DNA of 36,874 bases from positions 1-36,874 of IMG/VR virus record IMGVR_UViG_3300030329_001356; one strand, given 5' to 3'. The stretch is from a virus. Below the pieces are notes generated by a model. That model was not told where the DNA came from. It searched no databases and worked only from the letters and a program-made list of their open reading frames with translations. Positions 5,352 through 36,874 of this stretch are shown here, piece after piece. How positions within the stretch are numbered: position 1 is the stretch's first letter; every line of letters starts with the position of its first letter. The position numbers and the translations under genes were made by a program.

Positions 5352-6230
5352 TTAGCTGTTGTTAGTAACTGGGTCACCAATTTCGTAACGAGAAGCAGCA
5401 CCCTTGGTGTCATCAACCTCAAAGACTGCATAGTCTTCAGTTACAACAACTTCAAAGGCACGAAGCGAAGCATCTCGCTCACGCTCTTCTGAGCGACCAC
5501 TTGCGGACAAGTGACCCATAGCGGATCGGTCAGCAATAACACCGTAGCCTGAATCGGTTGTGCCGATCTTGGCAATGTTTCCATCCTCAAAGAACGGAAC
5601 ACCTGAAAGCTTGACTCCAGAGTAATAGTCTTTTACTGCTGGCTTGTTGAAAGCATCAGGCAGCGGGTAAGTTGCCAGAGTGTTTCCAATGTCAGTTGCA
5701 AGGTTCCAGATTGCATTAGGGTGGTGAACTACAAAGAGGTCACTTCCAAACTTACCTGACTTTGCATTTGCAATAATTGCAGAAGCATTTGCCAAGTTTA
5801 GGTTTTTATCATCAGCACCAAAAGCAGTTCCGCCATTCAAAGAAGGGAACAGAGCAATGATGTCTGTGTCCTTCTTACGAGCCATAGCGTCACCCATCTG
5901 GCGACCAATGATTTTGTAAACGTCTTCGTTGTTCTGGCGAAGAAGAGTGTCAGTAATAATTACTTTCAATCCAACTTCAGCAGTTGTTGCCGTAACAGTT
6001 GAGACATCAATGTCCTCACTGTCGATCATGTCCTGACCTTCTACAAGGTCTTCGGCATCCATCTGGGCAACTTTTGGAATCTCCAGCTTGTACTCGCCTT
6101 TACCTAGTTTGAACTTTTCAACAAGGTCAACCAAGGGGGCGTTATGCTCTTCTGTGTATCGTGCCTGTGCAAGCATGATACGAGACATATTTTGGAGATT
6201 GCCAGTTGTACTTGTTTGTACGCTAGCCAT
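5352..6230 (-). CDS. Major capsid protein (HK97-fold type)
   Basis: A 292-residue protein directly downstream of the scaffold-like gene. The order, length and alternation of alpha and beta segments suit an HK97-fold coat protein. Visible features include an N-terminal helical arm, a long spine-like helix (V-Y-K-I-I-G-R-Q-M-G-D-A-M-A-R-K-K-D-T-D), and a V-V-H-P-N-A-I-W-type segment typical of coat P-domains. The C-terminal strand (Y-A-V-F-E-V-D-D) and motif S-R-Y-E-I-G-D-P follow. The ribosome-binding site GAGGTAAATAAAG precedes ATG 6230. No protease gene is adjacent, so the coat is probably not extensively processed. Assignment is by context and fold pattern. Confidence 0.75.
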   Translation of the reverse strand: MASVQTSTTGNLQNMSRIMLAQARYTEEHNAPLVDLVEKFKLGKGEYKLEIPKVAQMDAEDLVEGQDMIDSEDIDVSTVTATTAEVGLKVIITDTLLRQNNEDVYKIIGRQMGDAMARKKDTDIIALFPSLNGGTAFGADDKNLNLANASAIIANAKSGKFGSDLFVVHHPNAIWNLATDIGNTLATYPLPDAFNKPAVKDYYSGVKLSGVPFFEDGNIAKIGTTDSGYGVIADRSAMGHLSASGRSEERERDASLRAFEVVVTEDYAVFEVDDTKGAASRYEIGDPVTNNS

Positions 6231-13100: not shown

Positions 13101-13605
13101 TCTCTTCTGCTGTGGGAAGTCCTTGTGGTCCTTTTTGCAGGTTTTCAATCGCATTGAAAGTCTCGCCAGTCAAAGGGTCGCGCACCTCCCCCGGAGTCCC
13201 GACAACAGATTGAGAGGTTCCTGATACCCACCTTCCGAATGCACCCGTGCCTCTGCCTACTTCTCTTGCAACAGGTCCAATATATCGTCCTATTGTCTGC
13301 CCTATGAGATTCGTGCTTCTGGGAGGAGCCGGGGGCTGAACATCTACAGCCTGTGTAGGCTGCGCTACTTGCGGTCGGGCAGAAGGCGCAGAAGGCGCAG
13401 GGGGCGCACCGTAGATGTTGCGAAGTCTAGAGTCAGCTTGTAAAGCTTCTATCCCGCCCGGAATAGAACGCAATTTTCTAAGGGCGATTTGACCGTTGCT
13501 ACCGCCCTGCTTTACCTGTGCTAATAATTTAGCTATTTCATTTTGCGGAGATTGGTAAAGACTTTGCTGCCCTCTTGAAACAAAATCTGTAAAAGATTGA
13601 GTCAT
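7159..13605 (-). CDS. Giant polyvalent-type virion protein with zincin-like and ParB-like segments
   Basis: At 2148 residues this is the largest gene. The N-terminal 170 residues are proline-rich and disordered, and a hydrophobic glycine-rich stretch lies around 250-290. Near residue 708 is a zinc-protease motif, H-E-V-A-H-H, followed about 50 residues later by E-S-F-P-E-Y-F-A-E-V-I-A-D, the usual second half of such sites. Residues about 905-985 form a ParB-like domain (D-E-L-A-K-A-I, then G-E-P-V-V-I-E-G-A-H-R-I-A-A-M). Beyond residue 1150 come long helical regions and another hydrophobic stretch (G-L-H-L-T-F-A-A-L-L-I-A). Multi-domain proteins of this kind are known as phage polyvalent proteins, thought to be injected with the DNA and to disarm host defences. 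It overlaps the upstream gene as TAATG. Its place before the scaffold fits an internal, ejected virion protein. Confidence 0.7.
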   Translation of the reverse strand: MTQSFTDFVSRGQQSLYQSPQNEIAKLLAQVKQGGSNGQIALRKLRSIPGGIEALQADSRLRNIYGAPPAPSAPSARPQVAQPTQAVDVQPPAPPRSTNLIGQTIGRYIGPVAREVGRGTGAFGRWVSGTSQSVVGTPGEVRDPLTGETFNAIENLQKGPQGLPTAEEIYKQVEETGDDLRTDYKGNPRPQAEQDLYIVKKQLESIGHDTTIPGRTVEEQVEKARIRLQSAFDVSPTTGQTRGEQAIRGGSNTAVLLQIFPGLPLTTAFGMGELLGGLIVGQGARKISEATGIGDPAQFEKWGTLGGSFLGMTPKNPASVLRQADELAGLRAAGRPIQGAPGLKSTLGLDLAGDELSQIARAGQAIGRPVISKVRKVTAPAVTRAANPIVRQMQKTASEMEGLDLRAIGDDKPVPAAERRQLKGVNEGQIELARGISVPIDDPRIAPSSVQSRQTFHHIAPAGTSIRYETRAGGTRRGVIGSNGEIIPVSNNSPLVGRLNINMIEGSRQQGLEAENLRKLIQEQTQQQEEFAQSSFGKSWNELSADQRVVLRESPELKETDDLIAELSEVVSLRQEQIDSNKAFLDIEDAHTSTDLGKISRGKRTFIDRIRLEVSKGKLDPEVGSTADAFVRSLPDELLKTLGTSFFKLFLDDPRILAGYPAGTTSVGSPIVSGRVTGWYDSGNALLNIPVNILKSSNFEHQLRVIPHEVAHHLMQFVPKKDLAVLEKVYKRNLRLEKIKDLSGRRIVLTRKGFVTNPREYRYESFPEYFAEVIADKVVRDTFEKSLNSNAERMAFAKVMDVVKQLAIAAYNLLIRNGKGDEAERIYRNLILGEYSPAVKNRMLGRSKVAGQADAAARGAGGVEGTLDEFYPLVGDTVDGRTTSTKVDNFDSVSSTYSSFEEVPGIREMDLRPWGDEGGFVTRSDIEQVDELAKAIRESNHIDPVIIGVGKNGEPVVIEGAHRIAAMQKLGANSIPVKLVVDTTDASLDEVATAIRGTEEAWKGRTALVDPPTTPARQLPMGLVGDQQQRGIEVAGRAYSAAERKRLTPNVVRQAQGDFFWESKLADPVDNTVDVAKSAELTPDVAGDLPPIIPKPPVAEGAFSTPIGNGKNRPFLESLQDTEIQYNVAFADNLFRKIGEALSPISKYFDPSLAAPESSIGKRLVIVLANLMEEGRVKADRAYTYISRLGTRESIFGPVDEQFKFTEGPFAGRSLNDIVENRADPDVIRLLEEIKLKEINSETGQPFTALDYVTRLAELDEAGSSFARSYGAEVGFSPEDKVLFASRKVYGKLDSEGNVTQIAFDSGDFPSGFVKGQLEEARVYETAREAEAEGFILIPYDETVKLKIAAVYRLAAEESVSKYVFDNYEFKKIPASKRSFEEKQHELFRGVVGTSQDARALADDFKKAQAAHLKKAPESALARAAQGYIQLGRSYELAGDASLFTIQLLFAIMRDLYYPVYKGRVSIPGMLGMKTGKQFAKDFVIGLGSPERVRRMSAATIDDARNKLAGSRVIMFQMPGDRTEILEGVGKVEQISNWLEGTARSIPVIGRAIAPIAKTLTFPVRRFADAAAEAFGATQNMAALHLWDAFSPLAKKADGSFDPKKLQDVEDTINSLRGLSSSARLGISPQQRWWESMVLLAPRYRKAVLNLYKNAMQGGVRGDVARQSLISGFVGLHLTFAALLIAKNKSEGKKWDKDLQESLTPGSSKYFVVQAGDAVLGFGGKTLSDIRFMAKMLDPNRSSEQHLTDIGRWVRGQTSFLGQDVFTGVQGRTFEGDPVAPWARKQLGQDQGGWLSAGEWLPNLGKYLAKKTMFIWMQEAALGSSSVETKLKVGGVEFIGGRAYEAGKPQLFDEKANEFFGKPYAELNMLERHQLKTSSDVAEQLYEYDLLSAKRGNAYAAYIVTNNAARNDTQRRTKTALDEFVKNMLDPEQVHTIRENGTRGHFNGVYSILSNLRTAVRDAEDEQYISMKEYRKNNGINNYVGKEPTNDFDRMLNAWYDLYEKYEKPAGGLQWDEYNDRTGAKVPGLESAQEAFIKNLSPQLAADLKTWRERYAEVPGVQEILDLPFTKRIDKNGKEVSLRYGYLNNAIWNVIQNEAGYSSKDYASAARGNYGPGEPQSYKGQPQPPPLSIYGKPIIKQPAGELAQ

Positions 13606-17098: not shown

Positions 17099-18475
17099 TT
17101 ACCACCTATTTACCGTAATAATCTTCGTTGCACCTGCTGCTCGCGCATATCCAAAGTTTACAACTAATCCGTAGGTTACTGCTTTGACGCTGTGATTGAA
17201 AGCGTCTCTAGGCTGCCTTCCGATTACATTATTGTCTTTGTCTGTGCGCCACGTATAGACATGAATCTGGTCATCAAACGGGTTAGCACAGCCCCCTAAT
17301 TCGGAGATCAAGCCCCTAGCTTTGTGGTTGATTATAAGATTTGGTTGTTTTGTTGAGGGGTTTTCTTTCAGGAACGTGTTGAATCTTTCGATACCGTCCA
17401 TAATGCCGACACGTTCTGACTGCATATACAGTTGAGCCTTCTCAAGCCAAGTATCAACAGGTCTTGATTCGCCCATATTGTGCGCTGCGATGTCGATTAC
17501 TCCCTGTTGAACGTCCTTCCACCACGGGCGCATCTGGCATATCTCAATAATTTCCTCTGTGATCTTTTCTCTTTCGTAGATTTCGTCAATAATTCTGACC
17601 TGACTGCCGATAATCTGTACTGCTACTACCGCATATGCTGATTTTGTGACCTGAGAATAGCCGGGGTCAACCCAAAGATGGACGGGTTCTTCTTCGATGT
17701 ACTCTGCTTTGTCTGATACGTGGGTTGATATATCGAACATGTTGTGGACAAGCCCTTTTGGTGGGGCAGGTTTACCAGCAACACGTTCATTGAACCAGTC
17801 TTCGGAGTGTAATCGTTCTAGTGACAGGATTTCTTCGTCTTCTCTGCCGTTAGGGTAGACAACATTGTTGGTCCAAGAGGGCAATGAGAAAGATATAGCG
17901 TCATCGTCGGGGTTATAAAACTGCCAAGACTCCCATTGGGACGGATACCAACCCAACGACATCTCAAATGTTCCCTCTAGGAACAAATACCCACGTTTTT
18001 CTGCAATTCTGCCCCTCAATCGCAGGAAACTTTCGTAGTCAATCTGTGATGCTTCGCAGGCAACTACCATTCTTGGTGCTTCCATGGCGAGACTTCTGTG
18101 ATCTTGGGCAGATTTAGTCTTGATCGTAAAAACGCCGGGCTTTTCGCTAGTACCACACGCCACAGACATCTCTCCGGGGTCAATGCGTTTGGTCTGCTTT
18201 ATCAAAAACCCCAACTTAGTCAGGATTTCCGACAAATAGTTCCACTCAGCACGAGTTCTCTCGTAATCCCTAGCAACCAACCAACATATATCACCACTCT
18301 CAAACTCATCCAAGCGGTTGATAATCGACAATGCGCCCAAGAAACTCTTACCAGCACGTTCTCCACCAGCTACCAGCTTTATTCGAGCCTTGTGGTCAAG
18401 TATCTCGTCCTGCTCTACCCACGTTTCATAGCCCGCTGCTGACAATAACGCCTTGCGATCCTCAGATAACAACAT
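17099..18475 (-). CDS. terL: Terminase large subunit (packaging ATPase/nuclease)
   Basis: A 458-residue protein. The Walker A motif is G-G-E-R-A-G-K-S (37-44). A Walker B-like strand, M-V-V-A-C-E-A (136-142), supplies the catalytic Glu141. The C-terminal RNase H-type nuclease domain shows V-D-P-G-Y-S with Asp270, then R-I-I-D-E-I-Y (Asp297), V-I-D-I-A (Asp328) and a final F-D-D-Q-I-H-V-Y near residue 414. It is the first gene of the leftward late unit and directly precedes the portal. The small subunit is not adjacent; it lies far along the same unit (32182-32664). Upstream is a four-copy 9-bp repeat. Confidence 0.92.
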   Translation of the reverse strand: MLLSEDRKALLSAAGYETWVEQDEILDHKARIKLVAGGERAGKSFLGALSIINRLDEFESGDICWLVARDYERTRAEWNYLSEILTKLGFLIKQTKRIDPGEMSVACGTSEKPGVFTIKTKSAQDHRSLAMEAPRMVVACEASQIDYESFLRLRGRIAEKRGYLFLEGTFEMSLGWYPSQWESWQFYNPDDDAISFSLPSWTNNVVYPNGREDEEILSLERLHSEDWFNERVAGKPAPPKGLVHNMFDISTHVSDKAEYIEEEPVHLWVDPGYSQVTKSAYAVVAVQIIGSQVRIIDEIYEREKITEEIIEICQMRPWWKDVQQGVIDIAAHNMGESRPVDTWLEKAQLYMQSERVGIMDGIERFNTFLKENPSTKQPNLIINHKARGLISELGGCANPFDDQIHVYTWRTDKDNNVIGRQPRDAFNHSVKAVTYGLVVNFGYARAAGATKIITVNRW

Positions 18476-18515
18476 GTCGTAGAAACTCCTAGTCGCTACG
18501 CTACCTCTCTCGGTC

Positions 18516-18550
18516 GTAACATCGGTAACATCGGTAACATCCGTAACATT
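18516..18550. repeat. Four tandem 9-bp repeats (GTAACATCG type)
   Basis: GTAACAT occurs at 18516, 18525, 18534 and 18543 with an exact 9-bp period, about 40 bp upstream of the large-terminase start codon. The core GTAAC is the same as in the CGTTACA/TGTAACG cluster 400 bp away. It could be a binding array for the same protein, placed in the late leader. Confidence 0.8.
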
Positions 18551-18600
18551 CAGTTCAGATTGCTGGGCAAGCTCGGCTTTTTACCCCCCCAAATTACAAA

Positions 18601-18636
18601 CTTCCCGTGTAGCAATTGGAGGAACTACACAGGAAG
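18601..18636. other. Inverted repeat / hairpin
   Basis: A 12-base arm (18601-18612) pairs with 18625-18636 with one mismatch across a 12-base loop. A second small hairpin (CATCT-AAA-AGATG) follows at 18650-18662. On the minus strand these would lie in the leader of the late message. There is no clear T-tract, so a terminator call is not supported. Confidence 0.5.
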
Positions 18637-18932
18637 CCTGAAAAGCTGCCATCTAAAAGATGCTAGCCGTACCAACTAAACACCTGCATGGAAACCTGAC
18701 GAGGAAACCGAGTAGAGAAAGCACCCCGGATACGCCAGCAACAACAGCTTCCACAAAGTATAACCAATTACAAATTTACAAATCCATCCGCAACTGCTCT
18801 CGCAAATAACCACAACCCACTTCACGCAACGCTCGCAAATGACAAACCCAACAAAATACACCAGTAGAACTCTTACGATCACAAAGACAATGACACTGAC
18901 AATACATATAAAACACCCTACCAATACCTAGA

Positions 18933-18977
18933 CGTTACACATACCCCCTCTCCCCTTAAGGGGAGGGGTGTGTAACG
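18933..18977. repeat. Large palindrome with CCCCTTAAGGGG core and CGTTACA/TGTAACG flanks
   Basis: The outer arms are CGTTACACA and TGTGTAACG, and the centre is CTCCCCTTAAGGGGAG. The arms match apart from a few extra bases in the left arm. A second palindrome with the same core and the same outer 7-mers lies at 26341-26366 (arms extending left to 26328), over the stop codon of the primase gene. The shared design points to a common binding protein or common structural role. Confidence 0.8.
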
Positions 18978-18984
18978 GCAGTAG

Positions 18985-19100
18985 CGTTACATATACCGTT
19001 ACATAACCGTTACACCCGTTACAGGTAACCAAATCCTAGTTCAACTTACCCACTTCAAAGTGTAACGGCAACGTAACAGCACCAAAAAATACAGTAACGG
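18985..19100. repeat. Iteron-like cluster of CGTTACA / TGTAACG
   Basis: CGTTACA occurs at 18985, 18997, 19008 and 19017, and TGTAACG at 19061. Close variants GGTAACC (19024), CGTAACA (19072) and AGTAACG (19093) are also present. Together with the two copies flanking the adjacent palindrome, this makes about ten related sites in 170 bp. Several are spaced 9-12 bp apart, about one helical turn. This is the usual look of an initiator-binding array at a replication origin. Confidence 0.75.
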
Positions 19101-19179
19101 GACTCCACAATGGCGATTCTACAACAACAGGGTAGGCAACTTTTGCAATTTCAAACCGTCAGAGGGGTACCTAACATCG

Positions 19180-19262
19180 CACCCAGCACAACCCCAACAG
19201 CACACCCCCCTCCCAGCCAGCGCCACACCACCCCACACACACCGCCCCACCCCCCACACAGC
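19180..19262. other. C/A-rich tract (G-rich on the minus strand, quadruplex-capable)
   Basis: About 80 bases contain very few T or G. The minus strand therefore has several runs of 3-6 G separated by short spacers, which meets the simple pattern for a G-quadruplex. It sits between the iteron-like cluster and the TTGTGAA array. Strand-biased tracts at origins can aid strand opening; that role is inferred here. Confidence 0.5.
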
Positions 19263-19279
19263 GGGCAAAATGTTGGACT

Positions 19280-19500
19280 TTGTGAAACGATTCACAATAT
19301 GCCATAGAACCAACGTTCTGCGAGAGATGAGCGGGCTTGTGAAACAATTCACGATCTACCGAATGGACATTGTGAAATAAATCACGATAGGCGATCTAAC
19401 ATTGTGAAAAGTTTCACGATATAGGCAGAAATACGCCTTTTGCAAAGTGCCCAAAATGTGGAATATATGCCCCAAAATAGACTTGTGAAGTATTTCACAG
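19280..19500. promoter_or_regulatory. Five-copy operator-like palindrome array TTGTGAA-N4-TTCAC(A/G)(A/G)
   Basis: Copies start at 19280, 19337, 19370, 19402 and 19483, each 18 bp long. The first is a perfect palindrome (TTGTGAA acga TTCACAA); the others differ at one to three positions, mainly in the right arm. Spacing between copies is 57, 33, 32 and 81 bp. Dyad-symmetric sites of constant length in a divergent control region are the mark of a dimeric repressor or activator, or of an initiator protein. A small helix-turn-helix protein encoded at 26722-26928 is one possible partner. Confidence 0.75.
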
Positions 19501-19852
19501 ATGAGCGGACACATGCGCGCGCGAAGGATTTGTGACCATAAACACCTTTTCACGCTCCAGCGTCTCTCTGCGCTTATCTGTGGCGTAGTAGCACCTACTC
19601 ACGAGAGAGGCGAGGATTTTAGGGCAAAATGCACAGCCCGTACAGGTAGTGTGAATGTGCTTTACTACCACTACCACTTCTGTACGCTCTGTGTGTGATT
19701 TAGGTATAGACTTGTTAACTTAGGGCAATGTTCAAAATTGCTCGAAAAACTACCCGTTACCGTGTAGAAATACTTGCTACTACTATTGGGAAGTGGTACG
19801 GTTTAACCACAACTTAATAGAGATTCTTTAGTAACAGTCGATCTCATAGCAC

Positions 19853-19887
19853 GGATCAATCGTTCACTCGATAGGCTGGATCAATCG
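19853..19887. repeat. 10-bp direct repeat GGATCAATCG
   Basis: Exact copies at 19853-19862 and 19878-19887, 25 bp apart, upstream of the first early gene. Purpose unknown. Confidence 0.55.
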
Positions 19888-20074
19888 CTCTAGAGATGAC
19901 ACCAGACAACCCGAGAGACAACGGCATATTGCAGAGTGTTACAGCTACCTTTTCAGCGGTCATCCTGATTAAATGCAACGGTTTCGCCCACAATCAAAAA
20001 GGGCAAAAATACATATCGCAATCACACAAGATCGCAAACAATAGCGAGAATACGAGAATCAATAGCATCTAATG

Positions 20075-20106
20075 AATAGGGGCAAGCTTCACGGCTTGCC
20101 TCTATT
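20075..20106 (+). other. Stable hairpin in the leader of the early message
   Basis: A 13-bp stem (20075-20087 with 20094-20106, one G-T pair) closes a 6-base loop, about 50 bases before the first early start codon. There is no T-tract after it, so it is more likely a leader RNA structure than a terminator. It could stabilise the early message or mark its 5' end. Confidence 0.6.
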
Positions 20107-20130
20107 AGTGAGGGGTTATTTACTCTCAAC

Positions 20131-20159
20131 AACTAGCAGAAATACGAGAATCAATCATG
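20131..20159 (+). repeat. 29-bp start-site leader, copy 1
   Basis: The sequence AACTAGCAG-AAATAC-GAGAATCAATC-ATG is identical at 20131-20159 and 20451-20479, ending in the start codons of the first two early genes. Shorter forms (AACTAGCAG and/or GAGAATCAA) precede most genes up to 26457. Confidence 0.9.
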
Positions 20160-21106: not shown

Positions 21107-22015
21107 ATGTCAAAATTCGACATCGCATACGACAAAATCACCAACCAAATAATCGAGGCTCTGGAAGAGGGTCACATTCCATGGGAGAAACCATGGGCAG
21201 CAGGTAACACCGCCGCCCGATCAATTCATGGGAAACTTTACCGAGGATTCAACAAGATGTGGCTGGAGTTCATAGCGTGGAAACTAGGATACTCTGACAC
21301 TCGCTGGGTCACCTACAATCAAGCTAAGAAGATGGGAGGACAGGTACGCAAGGGTGAGAAGTCGCAGGTCGTAACGCTCTGGATGCAGAGCTACAATCAC
21401 CAGAGTTCATGCCCGGTTAAGAAGAGCAAAACCCCATGCGACAACATCGGTAAGAATAAATGCTCACGATATATGTTAATGCGCTACTACAACGTGTTCA
21501 ACGTCGAGCAGGTCGACGGGCTGGACATCAAGCCGATGCCCGCCGGGATCGAGAATGATTTCGATCCTATCGAGGTCGCTGAAGAGATCGTGAACGACTA
21601 TCTGGAACGTGAAGGCATCATGCTAGCGACCGGATCGGAAGCGTACTACACGCCAGCAATGGACTCGATCACGATGCCACCACGAGAGACGTTCCGATCT
21701 GCGGAATCGTACTACTCCACACTGTTCCACGAGTGCGGGCACTCGACAGGTCACGAGTCCAGACTAAACCGCAAGGACAATAAAGTGAGAGTCAAATTCG
21801 GTGATCCGGTCTATGCACAAGAGGAACTCGTAGCCGAGATGTCCAACGCATTCATCGGAGGCGTGACCGGGGTAACTAACAAGATCGAAGGCGAACAGCG
21901 GGTCGCATACATCCAGAGTTGGCTGAAGGCACTTAAGAACGATAAGAAGATGGTGGTGATGGCAGCCCAGCAAGGACAGAAGGCAGCCGACCTGATACTA
22001 GGGGAGGCTGCATAA
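21107..22015 (+). CDS. ardC: ArdC-type antirestriction protein with zincin domain
   Basis: A 302-residue protein. Residues 1-100 match the ArdC N-terminal ssDNA-binding domain (I-I-E-A-L-E-E-G-H-I-P-W-E-K-P-W, Y-R-G-F-N, W-V-T-Y-N-Q-A-K-K-M-G-G, V-R-K-G-E-K). Residues about 195-250 carry the polyvalent zinc-metallopeptidase site, H-E-C-G-H near 207-211 with downstream E-E-L-V-A-E-M. Known ArdC proteins protect incoming DNA from restriction and are often carried into the recipient. Here the gene is early, third in its unit. An unusual insert at about residues 100-120 adds three cysteines and many lysines. Leader: AACTAGCAG, then GAGAATCAATC. Confidence 0.85.
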   Translation: MSKFDIAYDKITNQIIEALEEGHIPWEKPWAAGNTAARSIHGKLYRGFNKMWLEFIAWKLGYSDTRWVTYNQAKKMGGQVRKGEKSQVVTLWMQSYNHQSSCPVKKSKTPCDNIGKNKCSRYMLMRYYNVFNVEQVDGLDIKPMPAGIENDFDPIEVAEEIVNDYLEREGIMLATGSEAYYTPAMDSITMPPRETFRSAESYYSTLFHECGHSTGHESRLNRKDNKVRVKFGDPVYAQEELVAEMSNAFIGGVTGVTNKIEGEQRVAYIQSWLKALKNDKKMVVMAAQQGQKAADLILGEAA

Positions 22016-24064: not shown

Positions 24065-24288
24065 CTATCAACCGATGGTGGGAACGCCCGAACACTACTG
24101 GTGACAGGAACTCCACAACAACACGCGTTGCTGCTAAGTATGTTTCGATGGGACTAAATCACAACGAAGTTATATTCAAACTGTTTGACTACAACAAACA
24201 ATATAACGAGCCACCGTTGATGCCATCTGAAATCTTTAACATCGCCAACCATCTTGCAAAGTATGAGATATACAGAGGGAATCAATGA
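24061..24288 (+). CDS. Stand-alone PriCT-like (primase C-terminal) protein
   Basis: A 75-residue helical protein. I start it at ATG 24061 (site GGGAGGAACGCC), not at the upstream ATG 24046. The body reads R-N-S-T-T-T-R-V-A-A-K-Y-V ... N-E-V-I-F-K-L-F-D-Y-N ... P-P-L-M-P-S-E-I-F-N-I-A. This follows the PriCT pattern: R-N followed by helices, then a P-P-L/M and E-(I/L) signature. The adjacent primase has a second such segment (about residues 205-255). It overlaps the primase gene as ATGA, so the two are probably made together and may act in one complex. Confidence 0.6.
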   Translation: MTINRWWERPNTTGDRNSTTTRVAAKYVSMGLNHNEVIFKLFDYNKQYNEPPLMPSEIFNIANHLAKYEIYRGNQ

Positions 24289-26351
24289 CAGAGAACACAA
24301 TGTTGGAGCATGCTTTGAAGTACGCAACGGCTGGCATTGCCTGCCTTGCATTAGTAAAGAACGGCAAGATACCACTCAAGCACCCGCTCCAGCCGAGCGG
24401 ATCGAAGTCTGCCACGACAGACAAGGAGACACTAACCAAAATCTTTACGGACCACCCTGATGCTAACGTTGGGATCGCCTGCGGTGATTCCTTCGTGGCA
24501 GTGGACATCGACGGAAGGGAAGGCGAAGAGGCAGTCATTCTGGCAGGGCTGAAGCTACCCGACTGCCGGACTCATAGAACTCCCAGAGGATTTCACATCC
24601 TGCTAGAACCAGACACTCAGCTAGACCAGACAGCAGGTCTGTTCACCAAGGTTGATGTCCGAACCGGGAAGTCGAATGGATACCTAGTAGCACCACCATC
24701 TGTAGTGGATGGCAAGAAGTATGAGGTGTTCAAGAACCTACCACTAGGCAGATGGGACGAGTTGGTCGAGTACACAAAGGCTAATAAACAGTCCTCTCGT
24801 CCACGCACAGGCGATACAGCAGGCTGGGGTGATGTTGGACAGCCTAGCTGGGTGAGCGAGTACCTCTCCGGGGGCGCACCTGACGGTCAGCGCAACGATG
24901 TAGCTGCTCGACTGGCTGGCTACCTCAACAGTAAGCACATCCCAATGGACGTTGCTCGTCAGTTACTGGAGACATTCCGATTGGCGTGTGACCCACCGAT
25001 GGGTGAGCGGGAACTAGACCAGACGATCCAGTCTATATATAGGTACGTGCCAGCAGAGGATGTGTTCGTATCGGCTGAACTATCAGCACCAGTGGTTGAC
25101 CAGTCAGTGGCTAACCGGAGAACTATCCGGTGGGCTGATGAAGATTTGATAAGTGAGTTATCAAGAATCACAGACAACAGTAGTGGTCTTCACTGTCGCA
25201 TCCTGTTTAGGACACACACCGATGCTATCTATGGTCCAGTCCGATTGAACCTGTTGTCTTCTTCAAGTCGTGAGTCGTTGATACGACAACTCAAGACACG
25301 CAATAAAGAAGTCAACTGGTCAATGGCACTCGACCAGATCACCAACCTTGTGTCCACCAGCTTAGACGATGCTGGTTCTGGCATAGACATGCGCTACTTC
25401 AAGCCATCAGATGAGAAGCAGGGCTGGGCTATCAGACCATTCTTGCAGGACAAATCTGCAAGCCTTGTCTTTGGGACTGGAGGTGAGGGCAAGTCAACAC
25501 TTGTCATAGCTATGCTACTGAGCAAGGCATCAGGTCGTGCGTTCATACCGGGCATAGACCCCGGCGCGCCAGCGGGTGTCATGTTCTGTGACTGGGAAGA
25601 TAACGAGACTCAGTTCTACCAGACCTGTAGTGCCCTGTTAGCTGGCATGGACATGACCTTCGATGACCTGCTAATGCCAGTGGTTTATCGGCATTTTGCT
25701 GGGGCACTAGCCGATTATTCCGACACAATCTCTGACGAGATAGCGCGCCACCGTATCGAGGTGCTTGCTATCGACTCACTCGTAGCCAGTAGCGGGAGTG
25801 AACACTCGCCCAATGATGCTGAAGCAGCACGAGTATGGCATCAGGTAGTGAGCAGTTTCGGCATAGCTTCGATTGGCATTACGCACATAGCCAAGAGCAG
25901 TGCGAACAAGGATGGCACACCCTACGGCAGTGTCTATTATTTTAATCTGGCGAGGTCAATTTTCCAGTGTTCTCGTGAGGTTGAATCAGAACACAGCAGT
26001 GTCCTAGCTGTTGCTCATCGCAAAGGCAACAACACGGGCATCATGAAGACGATGGGATTGAGGGCTGACTTTGAGTCAGATGAGTTCGACCGGGCAACAA
26101 AGATTACTTACTCAGAAGCCGACCTAAATACAACAGAGGTGCTGGCTACTAAGTTATCTGTGACCGACAGGATTCTGTACCTAATCAAAGACAGGGCAAT
26201 GGAGCCTAAAGAAATTACAGACGAACTCGACATACCTAACAACACTGTCCGACAGGCATTGCTACGAGCCAAGCAACGGGGGCTTGTAATACAACTACCT
26301 AATGGACAGTACACAGCTAACCCCGAGGACGTTACAAACCAAACCCCTTAA
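24285..26351 (+). CDS. Bifunctional prim-pol primase / RecA-fold helicase
   Basis: A 688-residue replication protein. The N-terminal prim-pol domain (about 1-190) carries V-A-V-D-I-D-G (about 70-76, catalytic acids) and T-P-R-G-F-H-I-L-L (about 99-107). A PriCT segment follows (Q-R-N-D-V-A-A-R-L-A ... D-P-P-M-G-E-R-E-L). The ATPase domain has Walker A G-T-G-G-E-G-K-S-T near 397-405 and a Walker B-like strand, I-E-V-L-A-I-D-S-L, near 490. A G-I-T-H-I-A-K motif follows, typical of RepA/AAA_25 hexameric helicases. The C-terminus is a winged-helix (K-E-I-T-D-E-L-D-I-P-N-N-T-V-R-Q-A-L). Such fusions start and drive replication in plasmids and phages without their own polymerase. The stop codon lies inside a palindrome matching the one at the origin. 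Confidence 0.88.
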   Translation: MTENTMLEHALKYATAGIACLALVKNGKIPLKHPLQPSGSKSATTDKETLTKIFTDHPDANVGIACGDSFVAVDIDGREGEEAVILAGLKLPDCRTHRTPRGFHILLEPDTQLDQTAGLFTKVDVRTGKSNGYLVAPPSVVDGKKYEVFKNLPLGRWDELVEYTKANKQSSRPRTGDTAGWGDVGQPSWVSEYLSGGAPDGQRNDVAARLAGYLNSKHIPMDVARQLLETFRLACDPPMGERELDQTIQSIYRYVPAEDVFVSAELSAPVVDQSVANRRTIRWADEDLISELSRITDNSSGLHCRILFRTHTDAIYGPVRLNLLSSSSRESLIRQLKTRNKEVNWSMALDQITNLVSTSLDDAGSGIDMRYFKPSDEKQGWAIRPFLQDKSASLVFGTGGEGKSTLVIAMLLSKASGRAFIPGIDPGAPAGVMFCDWEDNETQFYQTCSALLAGMDMTFDDLLMPVVYRHFAGALADYSDTISDEIARHRIEVLAIDSLVASSGSEHSPNDAEAARVWHQVVSSFGIASIGITHIAKSSANKDGTPYGSVYYFNLARSIFQCSREVESEHSSVLAVAHRKGNNTGIMKTMGLRADFESDEFDRATKITYSEADLNTTEVLATKLSVTDRILYLIKDRAMEPKEITDELDIPNNTVRQALLRAKQRGLVIQLPNGQYTANPEDVTNQTP

Positions 26352-30080: not shown

Positions 30081-30995
30081 CTACAAATTAGTAACCCGCT
30101 TCCACCACCGCACAGCCTTCATGCCACCACGTTGGAGTGCCCTCACCACTAACCCTATCTTTTTGCCTATCTTTCGGGCAAGCCGTAAGACCTTTGATTT
30201 TATTGACCTGTATAGCCTGATGATTAGCCTGTATATCTTTTGAACCATCGGCAAGTCGGCAAAGTAATTACCCTCACGGTCAGTTAGCCACCCTGCTATT
30301 AGACCCATCTCGTAAAGTATCAGGATAGGTAGGGCAACAAGGAACGTGAGTGTCCCGTCTAGTGACGGTGTGATAAGAGCAGCAAAGATAAACGCTGTCG
30401 GAACAATCCACTTGCGTAGTGTCCTAGCTTTTGAGTACGGGACAAATCTGAACTTAGCCAGTAGCTGCATCACTATAGGCAACTCGAACACTATCCCTAT
30501 CCAGAACAAGAGGCTCAACAGTAGAGCCATGTACTCTGTAAGCAGGATTACAGGGACAGCTATGCCACTACCAAAGTTCAGAAGGAAGTGGAGTGACACT
30601 GGCATCATCACCCAGAAAACAAATGATGCACCCAGCGCGAACATCGCTATAGATATTGCTGAATAGGTTGTTACGAATAGCCAAAACCGCCGTGGCACAA
30701 ACGGCTTCAGCATACTAAGCACTCCCACTAGAAGAACTGGGAACGCCACGAACTGCCCGCCCTTCATAGACAGGCTCAGGGTGGAGCCGAACATATCTTG
30801 GGGTGCTGTGAAAGTAGGCTTCCCCTCAAAGGGGGACAGCATCTCTTCTGCGGGGGCAAGCAGGAAAGCGAACACCTCTGGATGCCACCAGAAGGTAGCC
30901 CCTGCCCCAATACTCCATGCCAATATGCACAGGAATACGGTGTTCCTGAACCGCTGACCGAACCTGAACCCCCGCTCGTAAGCGGAGAGGCTCAT
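30081..30995 (-). CDS. tatC: TatC-like twin-arginine translocase subunit with basic tail
   Basis: A 304-residue membrane protein whose first 240 residues follow the six-helix TatC plan. The landmarks are L-L-A-P-A-E-E (45-51), K-G-G-Q-F-V-A-F-P (78-86), W-I-G-I-V-F-E-L-P-I-V (165-175, conserved Glu171), T-P-S-L-D-G (209-214, conserved Asp213) and A-L-P-I-L-I-L-Y-E-M-G (221-231). TatC binds twin-arginine signal peptides and, with TatA/B, exports folded proteins. The site corresponding to the conserved Glu after P-G/A-L reads K-P-F-V-P-R-R here, without that Glu. The N-terminal H-L-x-E-L-R motif is also poor. The last 60 residues are an unusual, strongly basic, probably soluble tail. It is a late gene directly after several one-helix peptides. 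Phage-encoded TatC is rare; its role in infection is unknown. Confidence 0.82.
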   Translation of the reverse strand: MSLSAYERGFRFGQRFRNTVFLCILAWSIGAGATFWWHPEVFAFLLAPAEEMLSPFEGKPTFTAPQDMFGSTLSLSMKGGQFVAFPVLLVGVLSMLKPFVPRRFWLFVTTYSAISIAMFALGASFVFWVMMPVSLHFLLNFGSGIAVPVILLTEYMALLLSLLFWIGIVFELPIVMQLLAKFRFVPYSKARTLRKWIVPTAFIFAALITPSLDGTLTFLVALPILILYEMGLIAGWLTDREGNYFADLPMVQKIYRLIIRLYRSIKSKVLRLARKIGKKIGLVVRALQRGGMKAVRWWKRVTNL

Positions 30996-30998
30996 AGA

Positions 30999-31124
30999 CT
31001 ACGCGCCTTTGTTGGTCTTGTCTTTGTCGCCCTTACCGCTGTTCATCATTCCGTTGATTGCTGTGTAACCAAGAACAGCGATAGCAATAACTGCTATACC
31101 TATGATGATTGGATCGTTTGGCAT
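30999..31124 (-). CDS. One-helix membrane peptide upstream of tatC (TatA-like or holin-like)
   Basis: A 41-residue protein: M-P-N-D-P, then a hydrophobic helix I-I-I-G-I-A-V-I-A-I-A-V-L-G-Y, a short polar segment, and a charged tail (K-G-D-K-D-K-T-N-K). The start has a good site (AGAGGGCAAC). The gene ends four bases before tatC. An N-terminal helix ending near a glycine with a charged tail recalls a very short TatA, but the amphipathic helix and F-G hinge of TatA are missing. A pinholin-like or spanin-like lysis peptide is an equal possibility. Confidence 0.6.
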   Translation of the reverse strand: MPNDPIIIGIAVIAIAVLGYTAINGMMNSGKGDKDKTNKGA

Positions 31125-31133
31125 GTTGCCCTC

Positions 31134-31238
31134 TTATTTTTTCTTTGTGTTCCCGAAGTTGAGAACACCTAGTTTGTTTATCTTACCGAAAATGTTTCGA
31201 CGGACACCAATGACTGAACTATCAAAGCTAGTCATCAT
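31134..31238 (-). CDS. Tiny basic peptide
   Basis: A 34-residue frame beginning with two methionines, overlapping the previous gene's stop. It contains V-R-R-N-I-F-G-K-I-N-K-L-G and ends in three lysines, giving a positively charged amphipathic peptide. AGAGGG lies just upstream. It has no homology I recognise. Its place between two membrane peptides in a coupled chain is the main support. Confidence 0.45.
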   Translation of the reverse strand: MMTSFDSSVIGVRRNIFGKINKLGVLNFGNTKKK

Positions 31239-31395
31239 CCCTCTTGTGTTTATTATCGTGAACACCGAGACGAAATATTAGTCCCTCAACAGTGTTCCCC
31301 AATTCAAACTTAGCTATCTTTACCGCTTGCACAACTGTAGCTGCGCCAACAATTGAAGCGAAAAAGTATTTGAACATCCAGCCTAGTGGGTGCAT
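31228..31395 (-). CDS. Small membrane-associated protein (TM helix plus amphipathic region)
   Basis: A 55-residue protein that starts within the stop of the lysine-rich gene (TAATG). Residues 6-24 (W-M-F-K-Y-F-F-A-S-I-V-G-A-A-T-V-V-Q-A) form a hydrophobic helix. A second helical stretch (V-K-I-A-K-F-E-L-G-N-T-V-E-G-L-I-F-R-L) follows, and then a charged tail (K-H-K-R-D-D-D). This arrangement occurs in both TatA-type proteins and class III holins. No clear family match is possible by eye. Confidence 0.6.
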   Translation of the reverse strand: MHPLGWMFKYFFASIVGAATVVQAVKIAKFELGNTVEGLIFRLGVHDNKHKRDDD

Positions 31396-31742
31396 TACCT
31401 TCTACGCTTACGGCTAAGAAGCCCTGCAAAGGCTCCGCTGATTGTGTCTCTTACAGTCTGAGACAGAGAACCCACAACTTCTACAGCAGGCTCAACAACA
31501 GCGTTGACTATTTCTTGCTTGGCTTCTCTGCCCTGCTCTTTGAGTTCTTCAATCGTTAGGGGAGGAGGAGGCTCTGGTGCTAATGTTTTAGCAGCAGGCT
31601 TGCGTCGTTTGCTTTTCGCAGTCGTAGCTTTACTTCGCCTCTTCGCTGGTTTCTTTTTAGGCTTAGTAGCTTTTTTAGCACCGCCAGAAGTTTCTTCAAC
31701 ACCCTCCGCTTTTCCTAACTCCTCTGGTTTTATTTCTTCCAT
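31395..31742 (-). CDS. Lysine/alanine-rich histone H1-like protein
   Basis: A 115-residue protein. Residues 20-55 are a low-complexity basic tract of Lys, Ala, Pro, Arg and Thr (A-K-K-A-T-K-P-K-K-K-P-A-K-R-R-S) like histone H1 tails. A proline run (P-P-P-P) and a helical segment (E-E-L-K-E-Q-G-R-E-A-K-Q-E-I) follow, then a final R-K-R-R-R. Such tails bind DNA without sequence specificity. As a late gene it may help compact the genome for packaging. A nearby 37-residue protein is equally basic. Start ATG 31742 follows AGGAGGG. Confidence 0.65.
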   Translation of the reverse strand: MEEIKPEELGKAEGVEETSGGAKKATKPKKKPAKRRSKATTAKSKRRKPAAKTLAPEPPPPLTIEELKEQGREAKQEIVNAVVEPAVEVVGSLSQTVRDTISGAFAGLLSRKRRR

Positions 31743-32075: not shown

Positions 32076-32189
32076 TTACTTTCCGTAGCGTCTAGTGGTC
32101 TTAGACTTCTTCTTACGCTTACGAGCAGCAGAGGCTGCCTTCATACCAGCTTTGGTGTATGGGAACTTTCGCTTTCCAACTTTAGGCAT
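32076..32189 (-). CDS. Small arginine/lysine-rich protein
   Basis: A 37-residue protein started at ATG 32189 (M-P-K-V-G-K-R-K-F-P-Y-T-K-A-G-M), overlapping the end of the small-terminase gene by eight bases. Nearly half the residues are Lys or Arg. I recall very similar short proteins (F-P-Y-T-x-x-G-M-K-A-A) from other marine phages. Probably a DNA-binding packaging or virion peptide. A longer frame to 32273 lies inside the terminase gene and is not favoured. Confidence 0.65.
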   Translation of the reverse strand: MPKVGKRKFPYTKAGMKAASAARKRKKKSKTTRRYGK

Positions 32190-32664
32190 TAGATTCCTCT
32201 TTTGCTTCTGATAGTTGTAATGGCTGAATCTCTTCGCCTTCTTCTGTCGCAGCAGCCCTGCTACGCAGAGCATCTAAGATAGACGCAGCGGGTGCTAGCT
32301 GCGCAGAGATTGTAACATTCTGCGACCAACGATCTCTTGATGGACCACGCTCTAGCAACCATGCCTTGGCGCGCCAGTCCTCTTCTCTGCGAAGGTCTTT
32401 TACTAAACTCTGCTCTGCTTTTGCCAAGGCATTGTCAATTTCTTTAGCAAAAGTTACAAAGGGTTCAACAGCTTTTCTTGTAGGGTGTTCCCCTCTTCCG
32501 ACCTGAACCCACCGCTGTACTACTCGTGGGTCAACCCCAACAGACCGGGCTGCTGTGGTTGTCCAATTGCCTTCACTTACCGATTCAAGAATTGATTTGT
32601 AGACAAACGGGGTTAGCTTAGTTTTCCTATTTACCTTTACATCTGGATACTTTGCTATTTCCAT
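32182..32664 (-). CDS. terS: Terminase small subunit (probable)
   Basis: A 160-residue protein with an N-terminal helix-turn-helix (S-V-S-E-G-N-W-T-T-T-A-A-R-S-V-G-V-D-P-R plus V-V-Q-R-W) and a central helical oligomerisation region with K-A-E-Q-S-L-V-K-D-L-R. The signature W-R-A-K-A-W-L-L-E-R-G-P-S-R-D-R-W (97-113) is common in small terminases of this type. It would recognise the packaging site and stimulate the large subunit at 17099-18475. The two subunits are at opposite ends of the late unit, an unusual separation. Confidence 0.75.
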   Translation of the reverse strand: MEIAKYPDVKVNRKTKLTPFVYKSILESVSEGNWTTTAARSVGVDPRVVQRWVQVGRGEHPTRKAVEPFVTFAKEIDNALAKAEQSLVKDLRREEDWRAKAWLLERGPSRDRWSQNVTISAQLAPAASILDALRSRAAATEEGEEIQPLQLSEAKEESNA

Positions 32665-33181: not shown

Positions 33182-33727
33182 CTATGAAGTGGTGTATTCG
33201 TACAGGGTAAATACCCCAGTAAACGTACCACCGGCTAATGCTTTAAATCGAACTTTTGTTATTGCCTCAGTTGTGTTTATGTAACCACCAACGTGGGCAT
33301 CGAGTGTTGCCGAGCCAGTTTCAGTATTTGACCTTGATATAAAGTTTTTGACAAGGCTTGTGCTGGTGTGGCTAAAAAGCCTAAGTTCTCCTGACCCCGA
33401 TGAGTCAGCTTGGTCTTGGTCAACATACGTTCCAATCCACTGTAACCCAGTATCGTTTGATTGTGACCCGGAGCTATACGCCAGAAGATTTGCAGTCGAA
33501 TCAGCTTCGTTGTGATACGCCCTGTGATACACGCTTTGAATTGGTGCAGCGTAGGCATAGCTAGATGTTGTAACTTGAAAAGATAACGTATCGTCGGAGC
33601 CGCCTGTCGGGTAAAAGTTGACCCACGTAAATAGAAGTTCGTGCGCTGTCCCTAAACTTTCAAAGTCAACTGCTGTCGCTGAGTCTGCGGACACTACAGT
33701 TTGTTTTTCAATCTTTATTAGAGGCAT
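33182..33727 (-). CDS. Fibre-like paralogue 3
   Basis: A 181-residue protein. I start it at ATG 33727 (M-P-L-I-K-I-E-K), within the TAATG overlap of its upstream paralogue, not at 33766. It aligns with its two neighbours over most of its length. All share the order beta-rich start, x-H-N-E-(A/S), S-x-T-x-V-K-x-F-x-S, and D-A-H-V-G-G-Y-I-N-T-T-E-A-I near the end. It is the most divergent of the three (E-L-L-F-T-W replaces Y-E-F-H). Probably a receptor-binding or baseplate-like surface protein; no catalytic motif is seen. Confidence 0.6.
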   Translation of the reverse strand: MPLIKIEKQTVVSADSATAVDFESLGTAHELLFTWVNFYPTGGSDDTLSFQVTTSSYAYAAPIQSVYHRAYHNEADSTANLLAYSSGSQSNDTGLQWIGTYVDQDQADSSGSGELRLFSHTSTSLVKNFISRSNTETGSATLDAHVGGYINTTEAITKVRFKALAGGTFTGVFTLYEYTTS

Positions 33728-34374
33728 TACGATACTCCGTACATGTAAACCGTACCGCTGCCCCAAGTGCCGTTATGGTAATAAAATTTTATTTCATCTA
33801 TTGGTTCTGTGGTGTTGACGTAACCCCCAACCTGACCATGAAAAGTGTAGATATTGGCAGCAGCCTTAACCCCGCCCATGCAATTGAAATCGCTTGTGAA
33901 ATGTTTGACATAGGTATCGCTTGACGGGTTATAAAGCCTGAAAATCCCACAGCCTGTACCGTCTGGAACAAGATAGTCTGTCGGGTCAGGTGTATAGCCA
34001 TCATTTCCAGATGTGTCTGAAAACTGACCTCTAGTTAATGACTGGTAAACTTGTTCATTATGCAAACTCATCATATTTGTGTTTGTGCCGCTAGATTCGT
34101 CCCAAGAATTTTTGAATGACCAGCCAATGTTAGTGCCAGCCTCGTTATGCTGGGCATACGTTACGGCAGAAGTAATTACTTGGTTAAAACCACTGGTGTT
34201 ACCTCCACTGGCAGCATTAAATTGAACGCTAAATTTTCCGTCCCAAGCAGTACCCGTTACTAGGTTGTAGCAATGGAACTCGTATAGGTCATAGGTTGAG
34301 TCAATCCCTGACGTAATTTCTAAACTCGATACTGCTGATGTGATGTTGTGTTCAGAAATCAGTGTAAGAGCCAT
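33727..34374 (-). CDS. Fibre-like paralogue 2
   Basis: A 215-residue protein related to the genes on both sides. Shared elements include S-G-I-D-S-T-Y-D-L-Y-E-F-H, T-Y-V-K-H-F-T-S, and G-Q-V-G-G-Y-V-N-T-T-E-P-I-D-E-I-K-F-Y. It ends in Y-M-Y-G-V-S, parallel to R-M-Y-G-V-K-G of paralogue 1. A variable middle region (about 90-140) is longer than in the other two. TAATG overlap downstream and adjacent overlap upstream tie the three into one coupled block. Likely surface or adhesion proteins of the virion. Confidence 0.65.
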   Translation of the reverse strand: MALTLISEHNITSAVSSLEITSGIDSTYDLYEFHCYNLVTGTAWDGKFSVQFNAASGGNTSGFNQVITSAVTYAQHNEAGTNIGWSFKNSWDESSGTNTNMMSLHNEQVYQSLTRGQFSDTSGNDGYTPDPTDYLVPDGTGCGIFRLYNPSSDTYVKHFTSDFNCMGGVKAAANIYTFHGQVGGYVNTTEPIDEIKFYYHNGTWGSGTVYMYGVS

Positions 34375-35036
34375 TAGCCTTTTACCCCGTACATTCGGAT
34401 TTCACCAGCGTCGATGTTTCCGTTACTAAACTTGAAGTCAATTTCGTCGATAGCGGAAGTCGTGTTTATGTAACCAGCAACATGAGCATCGAAAATATAA
34501 TTGCTGTGTTGGCTGTATGCTGCCCTGCTTGTAAAGTGCTTGACGTAAGTGGTACTTGATGGCGCGTACAGCGTCAGAATCCCCGATGCGCTTTGGTCAT
34601 TATCTGCCCCAACCCACCAAGCCATACTTTGATATGAAGTCCCTTGTGCTTGGTCATAAGGACTTCCTCCCCCCTGATATTCCAGCGAGCCAGTGGAGCC
34701 ACTTTCATTGTGTACTGCACGAAACATGGTGCTGGTTATTGTTTCATTGAAACCCGACTGCCCTGCTGCGTTTACTTGAAACCCAAAATAGTCTGAGTTA
34801 TATGAAGGGTGCATATCTATAAAGTGGAACTCATACACATCGTAGGTTGAGTCGATGCCAGAGGTGAACGACAGGGACGAACTGGAAGAAGCTGTCTGCG
34901 AACTGATAAACGTATGAGCGTCTGTAATCAGACTGACACTCTGGTTGTTGACCTTCTGACCGTCGGCAAACGTAATCGAATCCAACTTGGAAATGTTGGC
35001 AACTTCGACGTTATTTATCTTGGATATATCAGGCAA
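34374..35036 (-). CDS. Fibre-like paralogue 1
   Basis: A 220-residue protein overlapping the end of the tail-fibre gene by eight bases. An N-terminal segment (I-S-K-I-N-N-V-E-V-A-N-I-S-K-L-D) precedes the domain shared with the next two genes (S-G-I-D-S-T-Y-D-V-Y-E-F-H near 55-67; T-Y-V-K-H-F-T-S; D-A-H-V-A-G-Y-I-N-T-T-S-A-I-D-E-I-D-F-K). The short N-terminal segment may attach it to the fibre or tail. I recall similar S-T-Y-D-x-Y-E-F-H proteins from marine phage virions. Confidence 0.65.
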   Translation of the reverse strand: MPDISKINNVEVANISKLDSITFADGQKVNNQSVSLITDAHTFISSQTASSSSSLSFTSGIDSTYDVYEFHFIDMHPSYNSDYFGFQVNAAGQSGFNETITSTMFRAVHNESGSTGSLEYQGGGSPYDQAQGTSYQSMAWWVGADNDQSASGILTLYAPSSTTYVKHFTSRAAYSQHSNYIFDAHVAGYINTTSAIDEIDFKFSNGNIDAGEIRMYGVKG

Positions 35037-36867
35037 GCAGAACCTCAGTCGTGTTGAAGTTCACATAGATTGAATCAGCAGTCAAAGCCACGCCAATCTT
35101 CTGAACCGTGTCACCGCTACCTGACGGAGCAGTTGCAGTTATCTCACCCGCTGTAGTGCCGATAAACAAGTCAGCCCCCGGTGTGAAGTTGTAAGTATCG
35201 TCACGCAATACACCTGAAACTAATATCTTGGTTGCTTCGCCGTCACCCTTTGCCTCTAACGCAACACCGATTGCTGGCATTGTTGAAGCAGCGTCCGCAT
35301 CTGCCGGACCAACCTCTCCGTCGCTACGGATGTAGACAGCGTTGAAGGCAGCAACAGACTCTCCTGATGCTATAGAAATAACTACACCTGTGGCTGTGTG
35401 GTCTGACGCTGGTGCTGTGTCTGAAAAATAAACCTGTCCAGCATCACCAGCAGTAAATCCAGCAGCAGTAATTGTCCCTGTTGTGGCATCATCTGCGTCG
35501 TTCTTTAGAAAGGCATCAGCAATGTAAGTGGAAGCTATCGCAGACCCTTGCCATACACCCGAAGCAATCGTACCTACCGCATCAATGTTGGCTTCAATAG
35601 CAGCAGCAACTTCGGCTGCACTCAGTCCTTCTACAGATGTCCCGTCTATTCGTAGAAAGTCATCATCGGCAACACCTGCTGCAAACTGTGCAACGTCGTA
35701 CTGAGAAATACCTTGAGCAACAGATAGTTCTGTGCTTTGTATTTCTAAACCACCATTAGATTTTAGATCAACAGAAAATTCTGTACCCGACAGGTCAAGA
35801 CCGTCACCGGGGGTGTAGGTTGTGTCGGTGTCTCCAACATACGTGTTGATGTCTGAGGCAGGGATTGTCTTCATCGTCCCGCCATCGTTGACAACAAAGC
35901 CATCAGTGTCAGCTATTGTGATTGACCCGCCTACAGATGTATTGCCATCTAGCAGGTTGAGTTCTGATGCTGTAGCAGTTACTCCGTCAAGGATGTTTAG
36001 TTCGGCTGGAGTTGAAGTAATAGCGGTGTCGCTATCTGCTGCCAGAACCGCAAGAGTACCGGACACGTTAGGGATAACAACAGTTCGGTCTGCTGTAGGG
36101 TCTTCGATTGTTAGTGTTGTTTCATAGTTGTCTGCTGTAGCACCTTCAAACACAACAGCGTTGGCTGCGTTCATGGTTACAGTGTCAACGATTGTTTGCG
36201 TTCCGCTAACAGTTAGGTTTCCTGTGACAGTCAGGTTGTCTGCAACAGTTACCTCAGAAGTGCTGTGACCTAGCGTTATTGCAGTACCTGAAACACCTGT
36301 GCCAATAGATACAGATTCGCTGCTATTAGCGGTGTCGATAATCAGGTAAGCGTCAGACCCCTGCTTGACTGTCAAAGCCGTTGCAGAGTTGTCGCTTACA
36401 GCAACATTTATATCTGTGCCATCTGCGCTGATTGAGTCGAGTGCAATGTCGCCTACATTAGTAATATCAGCGTCATTAAATGAAGTAGCACCAAGAGTGT
36501 TGCTGGCTGCGGTTGAAGTAATTCCTCCGCTAACAGTTGTCGCTCCAGTTATTGTTAGAATTGACCCATCTGAAGACAGGTACTCTCCGCCCCTGTCATA
36601 GAAGTAAAGCTTGTCTACTATCCTTACATCACCGTCTAACACATCGAGTGATGTATTACCGTCTTTACCTGTTATCTGTAGCACCTCTTCAGATGCGTCC
36701 CAAGTAAGACCATCTCCAGAAGTGTCAGAAGAGAACAGAGAGAAATCAAAACCAGCAGCATCTTCACCGACAGTCAGGGTTCCTGTAACCGTCATGTCTG
36801 TGACGTTTACTTTGTCACCAGCTTTTATCCAACGGACGTTAGACCCATAAGTGATCTTGACATCCAT
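35029..36867 (-). CDS. Tail fibre, main part (complete gene starts at 262 across the circle join)
   Basis: This is the body of the 670-residue fibre; the ATG at 36867 is internal, and 58 more residues lie at 262-89. After the N-terminal beta domain come repeated beta-helix-like stretches (V-T-G-T-L-T-V, L-T-V-T-G-N-L-T-V-S-G). They include the classic phage-fibre phrase A-E-L-N-I-L-D-G-V-T-A-T-A-S-E-L-N-L-L-D-G (about residues 345-365). The C-terminal part (from about 540) is a compact beta domain with V-V-I-S-I-A-S-G-E-S. There is no chaperone self-cleavage motif visible. It probably forms the trimeric host-contact fibre and heads the block of three fibre-like paralogues. Confidence 0.8.
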   Translation of the reverse strand: MDVKITYGSNVRWIKAGDKVNVTDMTVTGTLTVGEDAAGFDFSLFSSDTSGDGLTWDASEEVLQITGKDGNTSLDVLDGDVRIVDKLYFYDRGGEYLSSDGSILTITGATTVSGGITSTAASNTLGATSFNDADITNVGDIALDSISADGTDINVAVSDNSATALTVKQGSDAYLIIDTANSSESVSIGTGVSGTAITLGHSTSEVTVADNLTVTGNLTVSGTQTIVDTVTMNAANAVVFEGATADNYETTLTIEDPTADRTVVIPNVSGTLAVLAADSDTAITSTPAELNILDGVTATASELNLLDGNTSVGGSITIADTDGFVVNDGGTMKTIPASDINTYVGDTDTTYTPGDGLDLSGTEFSVDLKSNGGLEIQSTELSVAQGISQYDVAQFAAGVADDDFLRIDGTSVEGLSAAEVAAAIEANIDAVGTIASGVWQGSAIASTYIADAFLKNDADDATTGTITAAGFTAGDAGQVYFSDTAPASDHTATGVVISIASGESVAAFNAVYIRSDGEVGPADADAASTMPAIGVALEAKGDGEATKILVSGVLRDDTYNFTPGADLFIGTTAGEITATAPSGSGDTVQKIGVALTADSIYVNFNTTEVLLA

Positions 36868-36874
36868 AGGGATT
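36780..36874. repeat. Terminal direct repeat (copy 2)
   Basis: Exact copy of bases 1-95. Joining the two copies turns two truncated frames into one complete tail-fibre gene, which supports circular closure. Confidence 0.95.

Follow-up and report, generated by a model that had tools for sequence, protein, structure and literature searches.

The closest described systems are the TatC proteins of bacteria such as E. coli and A. aeolicus (PDB 4b4a). In a TatBC–substrate structure (2026), the twin arginines contact TatC residues E15 and E103 and are surrounded by F94, H12 and Y100 (PMC13323110). Laboratory TatC carrying F94A/E103A (the FEA variant of E. coli TatC), which is altered at two of these receptor positions, is blocked in substrate binding (PMC5102672) and retains TatA and TatB binding (PMC5201420). 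A further comparison is offered by the TatA-like small holins of the TpeE/BhlA type, small membrane helices from late phage or toxin-secretion loci for which a TatA-like weakening of the membrane has been proposed; TatA-like and holin helices may share a common membrane-weakening principle (PMC9527704). Among viruses, Fig. 6 of PMC10564846 presents two circular marine genomes (39.7 and 35.1 kb) with Prim-Pol, TatC, terminase and portal genes, which we compared by annotation alone; TatC is only named in the legend, and its function, origin, receptor residues and cassette are not discussed. The preliminary description of the locus studied here had called TatC a rarity in phages, which is broadly right, although those two genomes mean that this is no first sighting. 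Our literature search found no paper studying a phage TatC. TatC matches in Salmonella and Acinetobacter records of a phage collection were rejected as phage genes, the annotated ones being bacterial TatABC operons; the remaining matches are unannotated metagenome contigs, with a 'Listeria phage' and human-gut clones among them.

The phage TatC described here has in common with the bacterial proteins a six-helix core, R17, P48, T208, D211 and, in 10 of 11 sequences, P97 and E170, together with a small membrane gene directly upstream of tatC. It differs from them in replacing H12, E15, F94, Y100 and E103, in carrying Thr for Q215, in its basic amphipathic tail and in its distance (~36% identity at best, nearest in Dehalococcoidia), and no twin-arginine substrate was found for it. 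Although the same two receptor positions are altered in the FEA variant, the phage TatCs form a lineage that occurs in nature and is conserved, with additional changes and with neighbour genes of its own. No sequence relation to TpeE/BhlA-type holins was found, and in contrast to them the small phage helices travel with TatC and without an endolysin.

A conserved tatC gene in a complete phage genome

The window, that is, the whole stretch of 36,874 nt analysed, is IMG/VR record IMGVR_UViG_3300030329_001356, from a marine phage. An exact terminal repeat of 95 bp (1-95 = 36780-36874) and a tail-fibre ORF that runs on over the window ends establish that it is a complete, circularly permuted phage genome of ~36.8 kb (Table 1). 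The tatC gene is the final gene of a leftward operon that also carries the tail-fibre and small-terminase genes, which agrees with its earlier description as a late gene. Elsewhere in the genome, a little-conserved 2148-aa protein (7159-13605, minus strand) contains a ParB_N-like domain (residues 925-990), an HEVAHH zincin-type motif and one possible transmembrane (TM) segment, and is perhaps an ejected polyvalent protein. Three tandem paralogues (33182-35036, minus strand), each matching phrog_14820 (function unknown), adjoin the tail-fibre gene; an ArdC-type antirestriction protein with a metallopeptidase domain is encoded at 21107-22015 (plus strand), and ~1.7 kb poor in genes (18476-20156) lie where the leftward and rightward operons switch.

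Table 1 Features of the tatC locus and its genomic setting
Feature	Positions	Strand	Remarks
TatC-like protein, 304 aa	30081..30995	-	Pfam E 2.7e-34; fold match 4b4a; median dN/dS 0.14
Basic amphipathic tail of TatC, residues 245-304	30084..30263	-	17 K/R versus 1 D/E; high helical moment; model helix 249-302
P101-R102-R103-F104 codons; F104 at E. coli E103 position	30684..30695	-	Alignment
R15 codon (E. coli E15 position)	30951..30953	-	Alignment
41-aa single-TM protein; stops 3 nt before tatC	30999..31124	-	90% mean column identity, 11 loci; median dN/dS 0.07
34-aa basic peptide; start overlaps end of 55-aa gene	31134..31238	-	Same ORF and length in 11/11 loci
55-aa hydrophobic/amphipathic helical protein	31228..31395	-	87% mean column identity; median dN/dS 0.14; one helix in model
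115-aa protein; Lys/Arg-rich N-terminus, conserved amphipathic C-terminus	31395..31742	-	Upstream of 55-aa gene in 10/10 loci reaching so far
Major head protein	5352-6230		Hallmark gene
Large terminase (TerL)	17099-18475		Hallmark gene
Prim-Pol protein	24285-26351		
Small terminase	32182-32664		Hallmark gene
Alternative membrane cassette (109, 288, 50 aa) in relatives	L108 16528-17872; L085 14551-15864; L228-L242		

The assignment to TatC, first made from motifs, was borne out by profile and fold. The protein matched Pfam TatC (PF00902) at 119 bits (cut-off 25; E-value in Table 1), and a PDB sequence search returned solved TatCs as its only significant matches. Foldseek comparison of its AlphaFold model (mean pLDDT 74.5) with the PDB likewise gave TatC chains as the sole significant matches (E 1.4e-8 for 4b4a). 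All three landmarks of the six-helix fold are present (F170-E-L-P, T209-P-S-L-D213 and P223-I-L-I-L-Y-E229), and we regard this reading of the anatomy of phage TatC as highly likely. A literature search on haloarchaeal tailed viruses as the source of the sole viral fold match (UPI0003282282) gave no mention of TatC. The added 60-residue basic tail noted earlier was also recovered; AlphaFold models it as one long helix, it is strongly amphipathic (0 of 1,000 shuffles reached the same helical moment) and it is shorter in some phage relatives.

The median dN/dS of tatC over 55 pairs (Table 1) indicates purifying selection; tatC is therefore maintained by selection, unlike an ORF that arises by chance. 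Contamination or a chimera with host DNA, which the preliminary description had named as a way for its reading to fail, can be dismissed, because independent contigs of many samples have the gene within this operon, and the window is closed by its 95-bp repeat.

The signal-binding face is altered and the core is kept

Residues of 11 phage TatCs were compared with those of 39 Chloroflexota TatCs in Salmonella/E. coli numbering. The earlier suggestion that a P-R-R segment replaces E103 proved close, since F104 occupies that position in the window protein with P101-R102-R103 just before it, and the change extends to five contact positions, not one. At H12, E15, F94 and Y100 the window protein has Y, R15, M and P, and all 11 phage TatCs are replaced at the five positions by Y, R (10 sequences) or Q (1), M, P and F, respectively. 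By contrast, the Chloroflexota TatCs keep E15 (39/39), H12 and F94 (38/39 each) and E103 (37/39); the Y100 position is variable among them too. The core residues R17, P48, D211 and E227 are retained in 11/11 phage TatCs, and P97 and E170 in 10/11 each. Of the polar docking site for TatA and TatB (M205, T208, Q215), by alignment, T208 is retained, Q215 is Thr in all phage TatCs and M205 is replaced by Ala. As judged from these alignments, the change is focused: the receptor pocket is gone, and what remains is the core, together with part of the site for TatA/TatB docking.

Given the loss of the contact residues and the block in substrate binding of the F94A/E103A variant, we infer that phage TatC is unable to read twin-arginine signals. 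Sequence and fold both place it in the TatC family, yet it lacks the residues that define a twin-arginine receptor (H12, E15, F94, E103), and we therefore class it as a variant rather than a working Tat translocase. Among the credible genes of five TatC phages, no twin-arginine signal was found; the RR matches were confined to TatC, to ORFs on the reverse strand of the cassette and to other ORFs of doubtful status. As no credible phage gene showed such a signal and the receptor residues are lost, the initial idea that TatC routes a phage protein bearing a normal twin-arginine signal is disfavoured.

Four small genes accompany tatC

Four small genes precede tatC in an order (115, 55, 34 and 41 aa, then TatC) that recurs across related loci. 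The median dN/dS of the 115-aa gene is 0.23 (other values in Table 1), and the 55-aa gene was not found apart from TatC, save where a contig ends within the cassette. The TM helix of the 41-aa protein shows weak in-register similarity to that of TatA/TatB, scoring above 49 of 49 TM decoys and being equalled by 1 of 40 shuffles, which hints at, and only hints at, a likeness between them. No TatA-type amphipathic helix follows its TM segment, and the 55-, 34- and 115-aa proteins showed no similarity to TatA/TatB. An identification of the 55-aa protein as TatA was rejected for want of a profile match, and that of the 41-aa protein as a TrbC/VirB2 pilin was set aside, as the match was of TM type and below threshold.

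In a hydropathy scan of the window, the clearest TM proteins lie in the cassette, the only other segment among credible genes being that of the 2148-aa protein. Two relatives (G008 and G040) each have an additional multi-helix protein alongside TatC, and a third (G037) has single TM segments in a few large proteins. Small membrane proteins are thus present at the end of the late operon, as in phage lysis modules. No match to a holin family was obtained, and no lysin family was found among the phage proteins scanned; a missing endolysin would be expected if the host had no peptidoglycan.

The cassette is mobile and is replaced by another

Synonymous divergence between the window and two relatives (G037 and G045) is 0.47-0.49 for TatC and 0.79-0.87 for TerL. 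The relative G008 has a terminase 95% identical to that of the window and a TatC 82% identical, and the TatC of G037 is 87% identical. Because TatC is less diverged than TerL in the same pairs, and G008 is no closer in TatC than G037, these comparisons indicate exchange of the cassette among lineages of phages; some contigs end in or near TatC, which weakens those cases individually. One mosaic phage (G042; L092/L093) has window-like replication genes, part of a tail fibre and the TatC cassette, and a head protein just 29% identical; no terminase match was found in it.

In low-GC relatives this locus is occupied by an unrelated membrane cassette that encodes a two-helix protein of 109 aa, a 288-aa protein in which a single helix is joined to a large second domain, and a membrane protein of 50 aa (Table 1). 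The 288-aa protein has no family match. TatC was present at 16 loci and the alternative cassette at 15, with both together in none, and every relative whose contig spans the locus has one or the other. Of the near-complete relatives in which TatC seemed to be missing, one has a contig that breaks within the expected place of the gene (G015) and another has the alternative cassette in its stead (G022); in a further genome without TatC (G018), a 10-N scaffold gap adjoins the alternative cassette. That two unrelated membrane cassettes replace each other at one late locus suggests that they have a common role at the host envelope.

Origin and probable host

A scan of a genome collection, counting TatCs close enough to share a pattern with phage TatC, yielded 11 close cellular TatCs, all from Chloroflexota. 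The best match (36% identity) belongs to a Dehalococcoidia genome recovered from the depths of Lake Baikal. All phage TatCs grouped as one clade (100/100) in a maximum-likelihood tree; this clade sits among Dehalococcoidia sequences (95/93), and its stem measures 2.26 changes per site. The long stem and a small outgroup (14 non-Chloroflexota TatCs, many plasmid-borne) make the exact branch uncertain. Phage tatC was apparently derived from a Dehalococcoidia bacterium, and the tree proposed in the preliminary description for finding the host thus points to this class as probable.

A large-terminase search of 393 Dehalococcoidia genomes gave two matches. One of them lies on an 82.5-kb contig (G400 contig 49; L219/L217/L218), which contains at ~37-56 kb a prophage-like region with relatives of TerL, portal and two tail proteins, and with flanking genes that look chromosomal by eye. 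The marine SAR202 bacteria, which fall within Dehalococcoidia or close to it, have no peptidoglycan and span 29 to 69% GC (PMC11994032). Together, the TatC tree, the close cellular TatCs, the prophage-like region and the SAR202 data make a SAR202-like Dehalococcoidia bacterium the probable host.

Discussion

Four co-conserved small genes, a Dehalococcoidia origin and a mutually exclusive alternative cassette are added here to what had been described. The three functions first put forward for the gene (routing a specific phage protein across the membrane, blocking host Tat export or destabilizing the membrane in lysis) are inseparable by sequence alone. We tentatively favour over its rivals a signal-independent membrane role, most likely egress by means of this cassette, because the receptor residues are lost, no lysin was found, SAR202 bacteria are free of peptidoglycan, the cassette encodes membrane proteins and an alternative membrane cassette takes its place. 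We suggest that a phage ancestor captured tatC from a SAR202-like Dehalococcoidia bacterium. As the comparison shows, the protein has lost the pocket that reads twin arginines and retains the TatC core and, by alignment, at least some of the site at which TatA/TatB helices dock. It is encoded last in the late operon, alongside four tiny proteins, at least one of which (41 aa) is a plain membrane helix, and it could act without a signal peptide, using its own small helices or host TatA. It might then build or trigger an assembly that weakens the membrane, to which the basic amphipathic tail could contribute, and progeny would exit from a peptidoglycan-free host with no need of an endolysin. For such a host, exit through the membrane alone is plausible.

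Against egress, the lytic activity of the cassette is one that we infer, and lysis could reside in an unrecognized gene; by sequence comparison, likeness to TatA/TatB appears absent in three of the small proteins and weak in the fourth, and no holin family is matched. Moreover, making a hole needs no TatC, and an inhibitor role accounts for the TatC nature of the protein equally well. As such a poison, a signal-blind TatC would enter host TatB/TatC complexes and, late in infection, shut off host Tat export; the gain might be, for instance, a saving of membrane energy, a halt to remodelling of the cell surface or the exclusion of other phages. TatC functions as an obligate oligomer, tatC alleles with a dominant negative effect are known (PMC5102672), and the phage protein, which stems from the presumed host class, keeps its core and, in part, its docking residues without the signal site. 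Yet the single substitutions known to be dominant negative map to the periplasmic cap and do not prevent substrate binding (PMC5102672), co-assembly is uncertain when the closest cellular TatC found is 36% identical, the four co-conserved small genes are unaccounted for and a takeover gene placed so late would be unusual; we consider inhibition of host export rather unlikely.

The purifying selection on the whole cassette would also suit a dedicated translocase of changed specificity, in which a positive receptor face (R15, R102, R103) takes a non-standard phage substrate, perhaps acidic or signal-less, and the small helices stand in for TatA/TatB. Receptor charge is reversed, which goes beyond mere loss, and the 41-aa gene, with its faint TatA/TatB resemblance, lies directly upstream of tatC, as do tatB-like genes in many of the Chloroflexota loci examined. 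However, the search for a phage protein bearing a twin-arginine signal, or any other clear signal for export, found none and the TatA-type amphipathic helix is missing, and we judge this function unlikely. Replaceable cassettes are typical of accessory functions. The replaceability of this one, and its mobility relative to TerL, would fit superinfection exclusion, or some other function in the membrane or in host takeover that has no connection with Tat or egress, but the place of the cassette at the end of the late operon, and the presence of TatC or the alternative membrane cassette in relatives with the locus covered, speak against it, and we hold such a role to be improbable.

How phages exit from bacteria without peptidoglycan is poorly known, as are the phages of the abundant marine SAR202, and our literature search found no study on SAR202 phage egress. 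It is conceivable, though unlikely, that SAR202-type phages exit by a TatC-based pore that recruits host TatA or tiny phage helices and dispenses with a holin/endolysin pair. As a natural and conserved TatC with an altered signal pocket and a retained core, the phage protein offers a clean test of TatC roles beyond signal recognition, and it may serve as a tool for asking whether cargo is needed to trigger TatA.
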